From: Betaproteobacteria bacterium
GTDB taxonomy: Bacteria; Pseudomonadota; Gammaproteobacteria; Burkholderiales; Casimicrobiaceae
Length of the DNA: 64,000 nucleotides
NCBI GenBank assembly: GCA_016861105.1
Contig: BOKS01000002.1
Coordinates: 1 to 64,000, forward strand
Reading direction: 5' to 3'
The notes under the pieces were generated by a model, which saw only the letters and a program-made list of their open reading frames with translations, did no database searches and had not been told where the DNA came from. Below, piece by piece: positions 3,709 through 64,000 of the stretch. The position numbers and the translations under genes are program-made. How positions within the stretch are numbered: the first letter of the stretch is position 1; every line of letters starts with the position of its first letter.

Positions 3709-4431
3709 ATGGATCCCAAGCTCCAGCCTGTCTCGGTCCCGGGTTCGCGCCTGCCGCTCGAACAGGCGGGCGGTACGCTGGCCCTCGAGCGCAACAAGGT
3801 CCTGCGCAACACCTACTGGCTGCTCGCGCTGTCGCTGCTGCCCACGGTGGGCGGCGCGCTCGTCGGCACCCAGTTCAACCTGGCGCGCGTCTTCGCCGCC
3901 TATCCGATCGCGGCCCCGCTGGTGATGTTCGGCCTGATGATCGGGTCGCTGTTCGTCGTCACCGCGCTGCGCAACAGCGCGCTCGGCGTGGTCGCGCTGT
4001 TCGGCTTCACGTTCATCGCCGGGCTCGCGCTGACGCCGATCCTGACGTACGCGGCGGGCTTCGCGAACGGCGGGCAGCTGGTCGCCCTCGCCGGCGGCAT
4101 GACGGCCGTGATCTTCTTCGCCCTCGCCGGCTTCGCGACGGTGACGAAGAAGGACTTCAGCTTCATGGGCAAGTTCCTGTTCGTGGGGCTGATCCTGCTG
4201 ATCGTCGCGTCGCTCGCCAACCTGTTCTTCCAGGTGCCGGCGGCGTCGCTGACGATCTCGGCGATCGCGGTGCTGCTGTTCTCGGCGTACATCCTGTACG
4301 ACGTGTCGCGCATCGTGAACGGCGGCGAGACGAACTACATCATGGCGACGATGGGGCTGTTCCTCAGCATCTACAACCTGTTCGTCAGCCTGCTGAACCT
4401 CCTGCTCGCCTTCACCGGCCAGCGCGAGTGA
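3709..4431 (+). CDS. Bax inhibitor-1/YccA family membrane protein
   Basis: Seven-TM pattern and family motifs (GFTFIAGLALTPIL, LLFSAYILYDVSRIVNGGETNYIMATMGLFLSIYNLFVSLLNLL); strong RBS. Confidence 0.92.
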   Translation: MDPKLQPVSVPGSRLPLEQAGGTLALERNKVLRNTYWLLALSLLPTVGGALVGTQFNLARVFAAYPIAAPLVMFGLMIGSLFVVTALRNSALGVVALFGFTFIAGLALTPILTYAAGFANGGQLVALAGGMTAVIFFALAGFATVTKKDFSFMGKFLFVGLILLIVASLANLFFQVPAASLTISAIAVLLFSAYILYDVSRIVNGGETNYIMATMGLFLSIYNLFVSLLNLLLAFTGQRE

Positions 4432-4436
4432 CGCTC

Positions 4437-4500
4437 CCGTCCCGGCCGAAGGGCCGGGACGGCACCCATCGCGGGCGGCCTTGCGGCCGCCCGTTTCTTT
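4437..4500. terminator. Tandem hairpins between convergent genes (probable bidirectional terminator)
   Basis: CCGTCCCGGCC-gaag-GGCCGGGACGG (4437-4462), then GGGCGGCC-ttgc-GGCCGCCC followed by GTTTCTTT (4473-4500). Confidence 0.75.
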
Positions 4501-4528
4501 TCGCGCCGCGCGGACGACCCGCGCGGCG

Positions 4529-5872
4529 TCAGTCGGGGCGCGTGAACAGCGCGATCGACTCGACGTGCGCGGTGTGCGGGAACATGTTGACCACGCCCGC
4601 CGCCGCCAGCGCGTAGCCGCGGTCGTGGACCAGCACCGCGGCGTCGCGCGCCAGCGTCGCGGGGTTGCAGGACACGTAGACGATCCGCGCGAGGGCCGCC
4701 TCGTCGTCGCGGTGCGGCAGCGCCCGGACGAGCTCGACTGCGCCCTCGCGCGGCGGGTCGACCAGCGCGGCGTCGAGCGGCAGCAGGGCCGCGATCGAGG
4801 CCGGCGTGGCCTCGAACAGGTTCGCCACGACGAAGCGCGTCCTGTCGGCGAGAGCGTTGGCCGCGGCGTTCTGCTGCGCGCGGGCCACCAGCGCCTGCGC
4901 GCCCTCGACGCCGGTCACGTCGGCCCCGCGCCGGGCGATCGGCAGCGTGAAGTTCCCCAGGCCGCAGAAGAAGTCGGCGATGCGCTCGCCGGGCTGCGGC
5001 CGCAGCAGCGCGAGCGCGCGTCGCACGAGGATGCGGTTCACCGCGTGGTTGACCTGCGTGAACTCGGTCGGGCCGAAGGGGATCTCGACGCCGGACTCGG
5101 GCAGCGCGTAGGCGAGCCGCGCCTGCGGCGGATGGAACGGGGCCGCGGTCGCCGGCCCGCCCGTCTGCAGCCACACGTCGACGCCGTGGTCGTCCGCGAA
5201 CTCGCGCAGCACCCGCGTGTCGGGCCCGGTCAGCGGCTCCAGGATGCGGAAGACGAGGGCGTACACCGGCACCCGGTCGCCGCCGTCGCCCGGCCGCTCG
5301 CCCACCGCGACCTCGATCTGCGGCACGCGGTCGCGGATCGACAGCTCGGCGACGAGCGCGCGCAGCGCCGGGAGCAGCGCGGAGACGTGCGGCGGCAGGA
5401 CGTGGCACTCGCGCATGTCGGCGACGTAGCTCGAGCGACGCTCGTGGAAGCCGACCAGCACGCCGCCCTTCTTCGGGACGTGGCGCACCGACAACCGCGC
5501 CCGGAAGCGATAGCCCCATGCCGGCCCGTGCACCGGCGGCAGCAGGCGCCCGGGCACCACGCGCCCGATGCGCGCGAGCGCCTCCTCCAGAACGCGCTGC
5601 TTCGCGGCGACCTGCAGCGCGGGGTCGGCGTGCTGCAGGCTGCAGCCGCCGCAGGTTCCGAAGTGCGGGCACCGCGGCTGCGCGCGCGACGCGCTCGCGC
5701 GCAGCACGGACACGGCGCGAGCGACCTCGTAGGTCGGCTTGCGCTTCTGCACGGCGATGGCGACGCGCTCGCCGGGCAGCGCGCCCTCGACGAAGACGGC
5801 CTTGCCGTCGACGCGGGCGACGCCGCGCCCCTCGTTGTCGAGCGACTCGATGCTGACGACCGGCTCCGCCAT
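4529..5872 (-). CDS. rlmD: 23S rRNA (uracil(1939)-C(5))-methyltransferase RlmD
   Basis: TRAM-like N-terminus, [22 protein letters not shown] Fe-S motif, [42 protein letters not shown]. Confidence 0.93.
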
Positions 5873-29747: not shown

Positions 29748-30980
29748 GTGCAGACGCTCGCCGCGGCGCTCGCGGCGCACCGCGAGCACCGCTTCGCGGC
29801 CGCCCGCGACGGCTACGTCGCCGCATTGCGCGTCGTGCCCGCACTGGCCGACGCGCTCCACATGCTGGGCGTCGTGCACCTGCAGACCGGCGAGCCGGCA
29901 CGGGCCGTCGCGCTCCTGCTGCGCGCCGCCGAGGCGTTCGACTGGAACGTGCCGGCCGTTCGCCACAACCTGCGCCTCGCGCTCGCCGCGCTGCTCGCGG
30001 ATCCCTCGGTGGCGCACCCCTGGGCGACGTGGCTCGCCTACCGCGAGGCCGTGGATGCCCGGCGGCGTCGCGCGCGCCCCTTCGCCGGGCGCATCAGCGT
30101 CGTCGTCCCGGCGTTCAATCACGCGCAGTGGGTCGGCGAGGCGCTGGACTCGCTGGCGACACAGACACGGCCCCCCGACGAGATCGTCGTCGTCGACGAC
30201 GGGTCGACCGACGGGACGGCGGAGCGGATCCGCGCGGCGCTGTCCCGCTGTCCGGGACGCCCCCGGTTCGTCTCCCGGTCCAACCGCGGGGCGGCCGCGA
30301 CGATCAACGAGGGGGTCGCCCTGACGAGCGGCGACTACGTCAACGTCCTCAACTCCGACGACCGGTTTCCGCCGACCCGCCTCGCCACGATGGCCGAGCA
30401 CGTGGCGGGCTGCGGTGCGGCCTGGGGATTCTCGCGCGCGACGTGCATCGGCGCGTCCGGCGAACCCGTGGCACCCGGCACCGCGGAGCGCTGCGACGCG
30501 ATCGCCGCGCTGATCGACGAGGTCGGGGCTGCGGCGAGTGTGGGCCTCGCGTTCCTGTCGGCCAATCCCGCGGTGTCGAGCGGCAGCCTGTTCTTCGCAC
30601 GGACGCTCCACGAGCGCCTCGGCGGGTTCGCCGACCTGCGCTACAACCACGACTGGGACTTCTGCCTGCGCGCGAGCCTGCTCGCCGAGCCGGTGTTCGT
30701 CGCGCGTGCCGAGTACGACTACCGGCTGCACGACGCCAACACGATCACGGGCGCGGGCGTGGCGGCCGCGGCCGAGGCCGCCCGGCTGTTCGAGCGCTTC
30801 CACGCGGCGGCCGCCGGAACCGCGGCGCCCGGGCAGCCGTTCGCGCCGGTCCCGGGCGTCTGGGGCGCGGCGTACTGGCTGCGCCTGCTGCAGGGCGGCC
30901 AGCCGGGCTTGCTTCCGCCGGACGTCCTGCGCGCGTGCGCGAAGGCGGCGACGCGGATCGCTGCCGGGATCGCGGCGTGA
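29748..30980 (+). CDS. TPR-containing family 2 glycosyltransferase; same-frame SEC-C motif upstream of the predicted start
   Basis: TPR-like LHMLGVVHLQTGEPARAVALLLRAAEAF, then GT2 ISVVVPAFNHAQWVGEALDSLATQTRPPDEIVVVDDGSTDGTAE. The frame also encodes NAPCACGSGRAHKRCCG upstream. Confidence 0.82.
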   Translation: MQTLAAALAAHREHRFAAARDGYVAALRVVPALADALHMLGVVHLQTGEPARAVALLLRAAEAFDWNVPAVRHNLRLALAALLADPSVAHPWATWLAYREAVDARRRRARPFAGRISVVVPAFNHAQWVGEALDSLATQTRPPDEIVVVDDGSTDGTAERIRAALSRCPGRPRFVSRSNRGAAATINEGVALTSGDYVNVLNSDDRFPPTRLATMAEHVAGCGAAWGFSRATCIGASGEPVAPGTAERCDAIAALIDEVGAAASVGLAFLSANPAVSSGSLFFARTLHERLGGFADLRYNHDWDFCLRASLLAEPVFVARAEYDYRLHDANTITGAGVAAAAEAARLFERFHAAAAGTAAPGQPFAPVPGVWGAAYWLRLLQGGQPGLLPPDVLRACAKAATRIAAGIAA

Positions 30981-31888
30981 CGACCGCAGCGCCCGTGGCG
31001 AGCGTGATCGTGGCGCTCAACCCCCACGACAACGACCTGCGCCGCATCTTCGCCGCGTGCGACGCGCAGCAGGGCATCGCCGCGCCCTACGAGGTGCTGG
31101 TGATCGACAACGGTGCGCGCGCCGGCGTGGCGGCGGCGTGCCGCGAGCACGCGGCCGCGCATCCGGGCACGGCGGTGGTCCACGTCGCGTGCGACCGCCG
31201 CGGACGGGCTGCCGCCAACAACGCGGGCATCCGCCGCGCCCGCGCCGGGCACTTGGTGTTCGTCGCCGACGATTTCATCCCGGCGCCGACGCTGCTGCGC
31301 GCGCACCTCGACTTCCAGCAGCAACTCGCGGCACCGGCTGCGGGCATCGGCCCCGCGTACTTCACGCCGGCGTGCGCCCGTGATCCCTTCCGCCGCTGGC
31401 TCGAGGACAGCGGACGGCTGTTCGGCGTGCCGTTCCGCACGGCGTCCGTCCAGTGGCCGGGCCAGTTCTTCTACGTGGGAAACGTCTCGCTGCCGCGAAG
31501 CGCGTTCGACCGCGTCGGCGGGTTCGACGAGCGCTTCGAGGACGACCTGCAGGACGACCTCGAGTTCGGCCTGCGCCTCGCCGCCGCGGGGATCCGCACG
31601 CACCTGCTGCCGGCGGCGGTCGCCTGGCACGACCACGACCTCACGCTCGACGAGCGGCTCGAGGCGATGCGGCGCGCGGGGCGCGCGGCGCGGCGGATGG
31701 AGGCGCGCGCAGCGGGCGCCAGGCCGTGGGCGCCGATCGTCGACCAGCCGGTCGCGCCGCTCGCTGCGCTGGCGGCGGTCGACCGCGCGACCGATCCCTC
31801 GGCGCAGGCCCGTGCCGAGTACTTCCGCGCGCGGGTCGACCTCGCGTTCATCGAGGGGTATCGCGCCGGGGACCCGGCCCCCCCTTGA
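30977..31888 (+). CDS. Glycosyltransferase family 2
   Basis: VASVIVALNPHDNDLRRIFAACDAQQGIAAPYEVLVIDNGA...FDERFEDDLQDDLEFGLRLAAAG; GTGA overlap with the upstream gene. Confidence 0.85.
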   Translation: MTTAAPVASVIVALNPHDNDLRRIFAACDAQQGIAAPYEVLVIDNGARAGVAAACREHAAAHPGTAVVHVACDRRGRAAANNAGIRRARAGHLVFVADDFIPAPTLLRAHLDFQQQLAAPAAGIGPAYFTPACARDPFRRWLEDSGRLFGVPFRTASVQWPGQFFYVGNVSLPRSAFDRVGGFDERFEDDLQDDLEFGLRLAAAGIRTHLLPAAVAWHDHDLTLDERLEAMRRAGRAARRMEARAAGARPWAPIVDQPVAPLAALAAVDRATDPSAQARAEYFRARVDLAFIEGYRAGDPAPP

Positions 31889-31979
31889 CCCCAAAACGAG
31901 GGTCAGAGTCGCATTTCCACGGCCAGCATCCAAGACGCACGGAAATGGAAATGCGAGTCTGACCCTCGATTTGGGGTCA
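31886..31979. repeat. Palindromic element 1 of the GGGTCAGAG family
   Basis: 34-nt arms 31886-31919 and 31946-31979, complementary at 32/34 positions. Each arm also carries its own TGACCC-N8-GGGTCA hairpin. Confidence 0.9.
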
Positions 31980-32258
31980 GGCGCCGGCGCTGCGGATCAC
32001 GATGCGGACCACCAGCAGGAGGGCGAGCACGAAGAGCGCCCCGCAGACCACCCCGACGATCACGACCTGATGCGGCCGGATGGTCAGCGCGTCGCGCTGC
32101 ATGTGCCGGCCCTTGCGGACGCCGAAGAAGCTCCAGAACACGGCGCCGAACACCTCGCGGAGCGTGGCGTCGCGGCGGGGTGGATCGTCGGCGGGTGGGC
32201 TGGGCTCGCGGCCGGGTGCCTCGTCGGCGCGAGGGCGCGGCGTCGTCTCGTGGGTCAT
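31977..32258 (-). CDS. DUF2970 family small membrane protein
   Basis: [57 protein letters not shown]. Confidence 0.85.
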
Positions 32259-32358
32259 CGTCGGTCGCTGCCTGCGGCGCACGCGACGCGCAGCGGGAAG
32301 CCGGCACCGATCGTAGCACGCACCCCGCGCCCTCCCGCCGGCGTGCCGGAAACATCCC

Positions 32359-32386
32359 CTTGAAAGCGCAGCGGATTCCCCCATGT
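32359..32386 (+). promoter_or_regulatory. Sigma32 (RpoH) heat-shock promoter of clpB
   Basis: CTTGAAA-N13-CCCCATGT, matching the RpoH consensus CTTGAAA-N11..16-CCCCATnT, upstream of ATG 32430. Confidence 0.88.
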
Positions 32387-32429
32387 CGGTGACAGGAATG
32401 CGCCCCGGCCGAGGGGCGGGGAGAACCGC

Positions 32430-42530: not shown

Positions 42531-42652
42531 CGCGTCGATCGGGGTCAGAGCCGATCGGGGTCAGAGCCGCAACGCAGGCGCGGATTCGCCCCGCCTGCGT
42601 TGCGGCTCTGACCCCGATCGACGCGCTCCGCCTGCGTTACGGCTCTGACCCC
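42531..42652. repeat. Palindromic element 2 of the GGGTCAGAG family, with internal duplications
   Basis: Right arm 42592-42625 pairs with the left arm once a second tandem 16-nt copy of GATCGGGGTCAGAGCC (42537-42552, 42553-42568) is removed. CGCCTGCGTT(G/A)CGGCTCTGACCCC also recurs (42592-42615, 42629-42652). Confidence 0.9.
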
Positions 42653-43149
42653 TAAAGGCCGAGCACCGAACCGCCGAGCGCCGGCTCGCCGGTCGCCCAG
42701 ATCTCGTCGAAGCGGGTCGCCAGCGGCTCGACCGCCTGCGGCATCGACAGCAGCAGCGTCGCGCGCGGCTGGTCGACGTGGTAGCGGTGCAGCGCGTGGC
42801 GGGCATCGACGATCACGAGCGCGTCGCTCGCGCTGCGCGCCTCGGGGCCGGTGCGCCAGACCGCCATCGCGTGCGCGTACCCGCGGAGCAGGGCCGTGAT
42901 GCGCGGGCACGAGCGCTCCAGGTGCCGCGTGTCGTGGACGACGATGCGCAGCTCCGCGGTGCGCGAGCGGCGCAGGAACGCCTTCAGCGCCTCCGCGCGG
43001 GCCGCCGTGTCCCAGCCGCCGTCGGCGAGATCGCGGTCGAAGACGTGGACGCGCTGCGTGGCGAGCGCGAGCAGCGCGTCGATCGCCTCCCGCTGCGCGG
43101 CGATCGTGTCGAGGCGCCGCTCCTCGGGTGGCGGGGCGGCGTCAGGCAT
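42652..43149 (-). CDS. DUF7931-like hypothetical protein
   Basis: ALLALATQRVHVFDRDLADGGWDTAARAEALKAFLRRSRTAELRIVVHDTRHLERSCPRITALLRGYAHAMAVWRT; overlaps the upstream cupin gene stop. Confidence 0.75.
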   Translation of the reverse strand: MPDAAPPPEERRLDTIAAQREAIDALLALATQRVHVFDRDLADGGWDTAARAEALKAFLRRSRTAELRIVVHDTRHLERSCPRITALLRGYAHAMAVWRTGPEARSASDALVIVDARHALHRYHVDQPRATLLLSMPQAVEPLATRFDEIWATGEPALGGSVLGL

Positions 43150-62902: not shown

Positions 62903-63021
62903 AGCGCTTCGCGGCAACGGGGTCAGAGCCGTTCTTCGCCGGTGCAGCCGTGGCTTCGTACGGCGACCGTTCGGCGAAGAACGTCTCTGACCCCGTTGCC
63001 GTCGCTGACCCCTTTCGGTGA
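62899..63021 (+). CDS. 40-codon bridging ORF containing palindromic element 3
   Basis: ATGA overlaps the asnB stop; runs MKRFAATGSEPFFAGAAVASYGDRSAKNVSDPVAVADPFR; stop TGA overlaps the GTG start of the next gene (GTGA). Confidence 0.35.
   Translation: MKRFAATGSEPFFAGAAVASYGDRSAKNVSDPVAVADPFR
62913..63012. repeat. Palindromic element 3 of the GGGTCAGAG family
   Basis: 29-nt arms 62913-62941 and 62972-63000 with one mismatch, plus an extra CTGACCCC at 63005-63012. Confidence 0.9.
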
Positions 63022-64000
63022 CGGCGATGCGCATCCTGCACGTCCTCGACCACTCGCTGCCGCTGCACAGCGGCTACGCGTTCCGCACCGCGGCGATCCT
63101 GCGCGAGCAGCACGCGCTCGGCTGGGAGACGCTGCAGCTGACCACGCCGCGACAGCAGGCCGGCGACGACGTCGAGCGGGCCGGCGGGCTCGTCTTCCAC
63201 CGCACGCCGCTGCCCGGGTCCGCGCTCGCCCGCGTGCCGCTGGCTGGCTACGCGCGGGAGATGGCCGCCACCGCGGCGCGCATCGGTGCGCTGGCGGCAT
63301 CGTTCCGGCCCGACGTGCTCCACGCGCACTCGCCGGTGCTCGACGTGCTGCCCGCGCTGCGCGTGGGGCGCCGGCTCGGGCTGCCGGTCGTCTACGAGCT
63401 GCGTGCGCTGTGGGAGGACGCCGCCGTCGACCACGGCACGACCACCGAGGGAAGCGCGCGCTACCGCGCGTCGCGCGGCGTCGAGACGTGGGCGCTGCGC
63501 CGCGTCGACCACGTGACGACGATCTGCGAGGGCCTGCGCGCGGAGATCGTCGCGCGCGGCATCGCGCCCGAGCGCGTGACCGTGGTGCCCAACGCGGTGG
63601 ACGTCGCCGCGTTCCGTTTCGCGCAGCCGGCCGACGACGCGCTGCGCGCCCGGCTGGGCTTCGCCGGCTGCACGGTCGTCGGCTTCGCCGGCTCGTTCTA
63701 CGCCTACGAGGGAATCGACCTGCTGATCGACGCCGTGGCGCGCCTCGCCCCCGCCCACCGGCGCCTGCGCGTGCTGCTGGTCGGCGGCGGCCCGCAGGAG
63801 CGGGCGCTGCGCGCGCAGGCGATCGAGCAGGGACTGGGCGACCGCGTCGTCTTCAGCGGCCGCGTGCCGCACGACGAGGTGCAGCGCTACTACGGGCTCA
63901 TCGACGTGCTCGCGTATCCCCGCCACCGGATGCGCCTCACGGAGCTCGTCACCCCGCTCAAGCCGCTGGAGGCGATGGCGCAGGGCCGCATGCTCGTCGC
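63018..64000 (+). CDS. XrtA/PEP-CTERM-associated glycosyltransferase (GT4), truncated by window end
   Basis: Own translation: MRILHVLDHSLPLHSGYAFRTAAILREQHALGWETLQLTTPRQ...VVYELRALWEDAAVDHGTTTEGSARYRASRGVETWALRRVDHVTTICEGL. Not in the ORF track because no stop lies in the window; alternative ATG 63027. Confidence 0.92.
   Translation, partial: MTAMRILHVLDHSLPLHSGYAFRTAAILREQHALGWETLQLTTPRQQAGDDVERAGGLVFHRTPLPGSALARVPLAGYAREMAATAARIGALAASFRPDVLHAHSPVLDVLPALRVGRRLGLPVVYELRALWEDAAVDHGTTTEGSARYRASRGVETWALRRVDHVTTICEGLRAEIVARGIAPERVTVVPNAVDVAAFRFAQPADDALRARLGFAGCTVVGFAGSFYAYEGIDLLIDAVARLAPAHRRLRVLLVGGGPQERALRAQAIEQGLGDRVVFSGRVPHDEVQRYYGLIDVLAYPRHRMRLTELVTPLKPLEAMAQGRMLV

Follow-up and report, generated by a model that had tools for sequence, protein, structure and literature searches.

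The window, by which we mean the whole 64,000-nucleotide stretch of DNA analysed, contains a glycosyltransferase family 2 gene on the plus strand (30977..31888; Pfam PF13641 and PF00535 above cut-off) that converges on a DUF2970 gene on the minus strand (31977..32258; PF11174, 67.2 bits). The two genes meet at a palindrome with arms TGACCCCAAAACGAGGGTCA and TGACCCCAAATCGAGGGTCA, an inverted repeat of 43 nt per arm that is 86% complementary and has 26 nt between the arms. As a preliminary description of this DNA had stated, both genes end on a TGA at the outer edge of the palindrome (31886-31888 on the plus strand and 31979-31977 on the minus strand), and each arm can form a TGACCC-N8-GGGTCA hairpin at the place given there, a pattern found twice in the window against 0.02 expected. 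The element itself spans 80 bp (31893-31972) and is an inverted REP dimer, consisting of a left unit AAAACGAGGGTCAGAGTCGCATTTC (31893..31917, plus strand), a spacer that forms the tip of the long hairpin (31918..31947), and an inverted right unit AAATCGAGGGTCAGACTCGCATTTC (31948..31972, minus strand). The four bases that separate each unit from the adjacent stop codon (CCCC at 31889..31892 and, at 31973..31976, GGGG on the plus strand or CCCC on the minus strand) are flanking sequence that lies outside the REP family.

A REP family and a RAYT-type transposase gene in the source genome

Searching the source genome, that of a member of the Burkholderiales, with the window element gave 125 alignments, and the core GGGTCAGAGTCGmATTTC occurs 132 times in the genome at two or fewer mismatches, compared with no occurrence of the reversed pattern used as a control. 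We retrieved 42 genomic regions and called their genes with a purpose-written codon-usage caller and no standard program. The retrieved loci hold 138 units in 46 clusters, mostly inverted pairs or larger head-to-head clusters of a 25 bp unit, GAAACGAG-GGTCAGA-CTCGmATTTC, whose tag tetranucleotide is CGAG in most units of this genome and GTAG or TTAG in some outer units as well as in genomes G002 (a sister species) and G008. Clusters lie outside called genes in 44 of the 46 cases, and one, L051, was called inside a gene. The family therefore has the hallmarks of REPs: a short palindromic unit in many dispersed copies that are mostly extragenic and near gene 3′ ends. Alignment of 86 outer units places the family boundary at (G)AAACGAG, where conservation starts 4 bp inside each of the window stops; beyond it, positions hardly depart from background, save for a mild C/G bias. 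Elsewhere in the family, ends of the TGACCC-N8-GGGTCA type are found only at one end of one other cluster, L043. Thus TGACCCC, which had been described as part of the repeat, is sequence that flanks the window copy.

One locus, L057, carries a RAYT-type gene (4119-4814, minus strand) that encodes an intact 231-residue Y1_Tnp protein (PF01797, 41.9 bits). Three REP units lie on one side of this gene, and the other side has two that point the opposite way, which is the arrangement of a RAYT gene flanked by inverted copies of its REP that is expected of REPIN/RAYT systems. The best NCBIfam match of the protein is NF047646 (REP-associated tyrosine transposase), at 70.2 bits against a cut-off of 80, which it does not pass, and a phmmer search of the protein against solved structures gave no match. 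At the orthologous position in G002 there is likewise a Y1_Tnp gene with the same neighbour gene. We conclude that the source genome contains a REP/RAYT system, and the family was probably spread by a HUH transposase of the RAYT type that would act on hairpin DNA.

A second REP-like family, GGGGTCAGAGCCG, is represented by 31 cores in the genome. In its copy at window positions 42541-42654 the outermost unit reads CTT-TAG-GGGTCAGAGCC compared with GA-TCG-GGGTCAGAGCC in the inner units, and the TAG is the stop codon of a minus-strand gene (42652-43149). A further copy, at 62919-63011, lies 17 bp from the stop of one gene and before the start of another (63018-63998). Units of this second family flank a second Y1_Tnp gene, at about 4335-4661 of L064 (G000:C7:107334-107660, G000 being the source genome), which has an in-frame TAG and looks decayed.

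The convergent gene pair in relatives that lack the repeat

We searched 22 genomes of the genus for orthologues with a concatenated protein query. In seven REP-free relatives (G001, G002, G004, G009, G010, G015 and G019) the DUF2970 protein ends AGA or AGV immediately before the stop codon. The convergent pair is present without the repeat in G019, where both stops are TGA and the gap is 5 bp (TGA-CCGCC-TCA), in G004, where both stops are again TGA and the gap is 19 bp (TGA-CCGCGTTTCGAGCGCGGCG-TCA), and in G001, where the gene ends overlap. At the G004 locus (L130), which has no REP, a short hairpin (CCGCG-TTTCGAG-CGCGG) is already formed by the 19 bp that separate the TGA stops.

Because REP-free relatives keep both the gene pair and its two TGA stops, the window stops are most likely older than the element. 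The proposal that the palindrome supplies the stops of both neighbours is thus contradicted by the comparison of C-termini, which found the same stops in repeat-free orthologues (G004 and G019); judged from these orthologues, the window element probably supplied neither. The empty site on which this reading draws is one reconstructed from other species and not from a strain of the same species, and the ancestral stop codon of the glycosyltransferase gene is less certain than that of the DUF2970 gene because the glycosyltransferase C-terminus is variable. We consider it likely that the element is an ordinary inverted dimer of a dispersed REP family, lying between two convergent genes that already had their TGA stops. 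With the element removed, the present gap between the two genes would be 8 bp. That the palindrome extends as far as the stops seems to follow from base complementarity: TGA stops that face each other (TGA...TCA) can pair, and so can the adjoining CCCC and GGGG.

Folding of the dimer and the ends of the two mRNAs

Folded as RNA, the 107 nt region reaches -67.4 kcal/mol on the plus strand and -74.4 kcal/mol on the minus strand (z = -10.6 and -9.8 compared with shuffled sequences). The long hairpin is favoured, a single local TGACCC-N8-GGGTCA hairpin reaching -8.3 kcal/mol. Rfam returned only sub-threshold matches to microRNA precursors, which are expected with any long hairpin. The palindrome had also been proposed to serve as a bidirectional terminator. 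For an intrinsic terminator this lacks support from the sequence, since no site resembling a rho-independent terminator (a GC-rich hairpin followed by a T run) was found in 31500-32400.

With the dimer in place, a very stable hairpin would now form the end of both mRNAs and, by analogy with the REPs of E. coli, could shield their 3′ ends or slow terminating ribosomes. This raises the possibility that both genes retain the dimer as a functional 3′ end element, whether as an exonuclease barrier, a ribosome brake or a Rho-linked terminator. The stability of the hairpin on both strands and its start 4 nt past each stop are in keeping with such a role, as is the finding, attributed to Liang 2015 in a passage of PMC12306157 that summarises it, that translation in E. 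coli can be diminished by REPs at a distance of less than 16 nt from a stop; in the source genome, 34 of the 61 gene 3′ ends that face REP clusters are within 15 bp of the cluster. Against it stand the lack of an intrinsic-terminator-like site and the REP-free relatives, which keep the gene pair, so that the window element has been dispensable over evolution. We regard a retained 3′ end function as rather unlikely.

Position of REP clusters relative to gene ends

The genes on either side are convergent for 20 of the 44 clusters outside called genes, co-directional for 21 and divergent for 3, where a background of gene pairs taken from the retrieved loci (and not from the whole genome) predicts about 5, 33 and 7, respectively; the convergent enrichment is significant (Fisher p about 2e-7). 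Among the 61 gene 3′ ends that face a cluster, 42 are within 20 bp of it and 11 overlap a unit. When the element is subtracted from occupied convergent pairs, the sizes of the gaps that are left resemble those of background gaps. These findings bear on the broader suggestion that the family is linked to stop codons. The enrichment at gene 3′ ends holds, and in seven other clusters the outermost unit itself contains the stop (a TAG at a different place in the unit, discussed below). We suggest that the adjacency to stops would arise from survival: most lasting REP copies would be those immediately 3′ of genes, particularly in narrow gaps between convergent ones, where they are presumably least harmful.

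Alternatively, the transposase may prefer stop codons, or short sequences found there, as insertion targets, so that adjacency would reflect the choice of target and not survival. The units of other species bear on this possibility. The unit is GAAAGTAG in G002, has ATTGG or AATGG in G004 and TTAG, ATAG or GTAG in G008, and is AAAACCGG in the isolate SJ809. In G002, 9 of 14 nearby 3′ ends overlap the unit, five at register -8 (where the unit offers TAG) and four at -2 (where it offers TGA). In SJ809, 8 of 11 fall at -3 to 0, and at two loci (L364 and L383) the edges of the dimer are within one base of the TGA stops of both convergent neighbours. This recurrence of exact registers, like the 3′ ends that overlap units in the source genome, is what a target preference would produce, and with stops so exactly at the element edge the preference may be real in SJ809. 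However, registers -8 and -2 belong to a single reading frame, in which the unit offers either TGA or TAG, and selection among random insertions would therefore explain them too. The bases just outside the unit are variable, and 27 of the 86 outer units (31%) face gene starts, both of which argue against a preferred target. On balance we find a target preference improbable. That the element brought TGACCCC along and thereby supplied both stops at the window locus is very improbable: the motif is present symmetrically at both ends and L043 has a similar TGACCCCC end, but the motif is found in only 3 of 86 outer units, and both stops exist in G004 and G019, which lack the repeat.

TAG tags that act as stop codons

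In seven clusters (L048, L052, L053, L060, L071, L072 and L081) the outermost unit carries TAG instead of GAG, and this TAG is the in-frame stop codon of the abutting gene. TAG was found in none of 52 inner units and in none of 27 outer units that face the 5′ end of a gene. We compared proteins that end in a REP TAG with those of REP-free relatives and found them longer by 4 residues (RraA-like), about 7 (HAD phosphatase), about 4 (MetW) and 1 (ABC exporter); AroD, and XseA compared with one relative, are equal in length to their REP-free counterparts. Because of these differences in length, we conclude from the predicted proteins that at least some copies of the element provide a new stop codon to the neighbouring gene. 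Where the stop overlaps the unit only at -1 or -2 (an ALDH gene at L069 and an ABC permease gene at L056), REP-free relatives have their stop at that codon too.

Some REP sites are common to G002 and the source genome. At all three such sites where the TAG of G002 is a stop (XseA, DsbA-like and AroD), the source genome keeps the TAG, whereas at none of the five where it is not a stop does it do so, the source genome having CGAG instead (the right end of L060, YecA at L057, both ends of L070, and CsoR at L078). This contrast (Fisher p = 1/56 = 0.018) was calculated by hand from small numbers, and independent insertions are possible. The contrast speaks for an old TAG tag that selection has preserved, rather than for nonsense mutations that arose anew several times. 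The seven TAGs are unlikely to stem from simple nonsense mutation of CGAG copies, as stops would be expected at several positions and in several frames and all seven occupy the same codon. We also rejected the idea that TAG is a stop-only variant across the genus, many TAG tags in G002 and G008 not being stops.

We tentatively propose that a REP tag that has become a stop codon is held by selection for translation termination while the remaining copies of the family drift towards a different tag, a reading that we consider a little short of an even prospect. Were tags locked in this manner, gene ends would preserve fossils of older REP sequence and would keep the copies concerned where they are. 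Such locking of a tag by its function as a stop is apparently absent from the REP literature that we examined, and would add a modest new detail to it.

Discussion

The REP dimer in the window belongs to a known class of element. Convergent REPs mostly lie less than 20 bp from the ends of both ORFs, and the termini of GTAG REPs often supply the TAG stop of flanking ORFs (PMC3733652). Like GTAG REPs, the family described here is short, palindromic and dispersed, often as inverted pairs near convergent 3′ ends, and the sister species G002 carries GTAG at the matching place. Unlike in GTAG REPs, the tag position in the source genome is CGAG and lies inside the stem, GTAG-type tags being limited to a few outer units. 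The family also resembles REPINs and RAYTs (PMC3116915, PMC2817692) in its inverted REP pairs, in a Y1_Tnp gene that has copies of the same REP on both sides in opposite orientations, and in the single intact RAYT copy of the source genome at a place common to G002; it differs from these in that the protein scores below the cut-off of the NCBIfam REP-associated transposase model and in that many clusters hold at least three units. With TIRYT-associated repeats, which have a GGGGWSAS motif (PMC3733652), the family of G004, that of SJ809 and the second family of the source genome share a GGGGTCAG core that fits this motif. However, with their compact size, self-complementarity and high number, the present units are nearer to REPs than to long terminal inverted repeats.

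The window locus, an ordinary one for this family, does not appear to be a case of one element that created both stop codons together. The REP family as a whole offers a countable case of a mobile repeat adopted as a coding signal: the TAG stops of three genes fall within a common repeat and are kept in two species, while at five common repeats where the TAG is not a stop it is no longer present.
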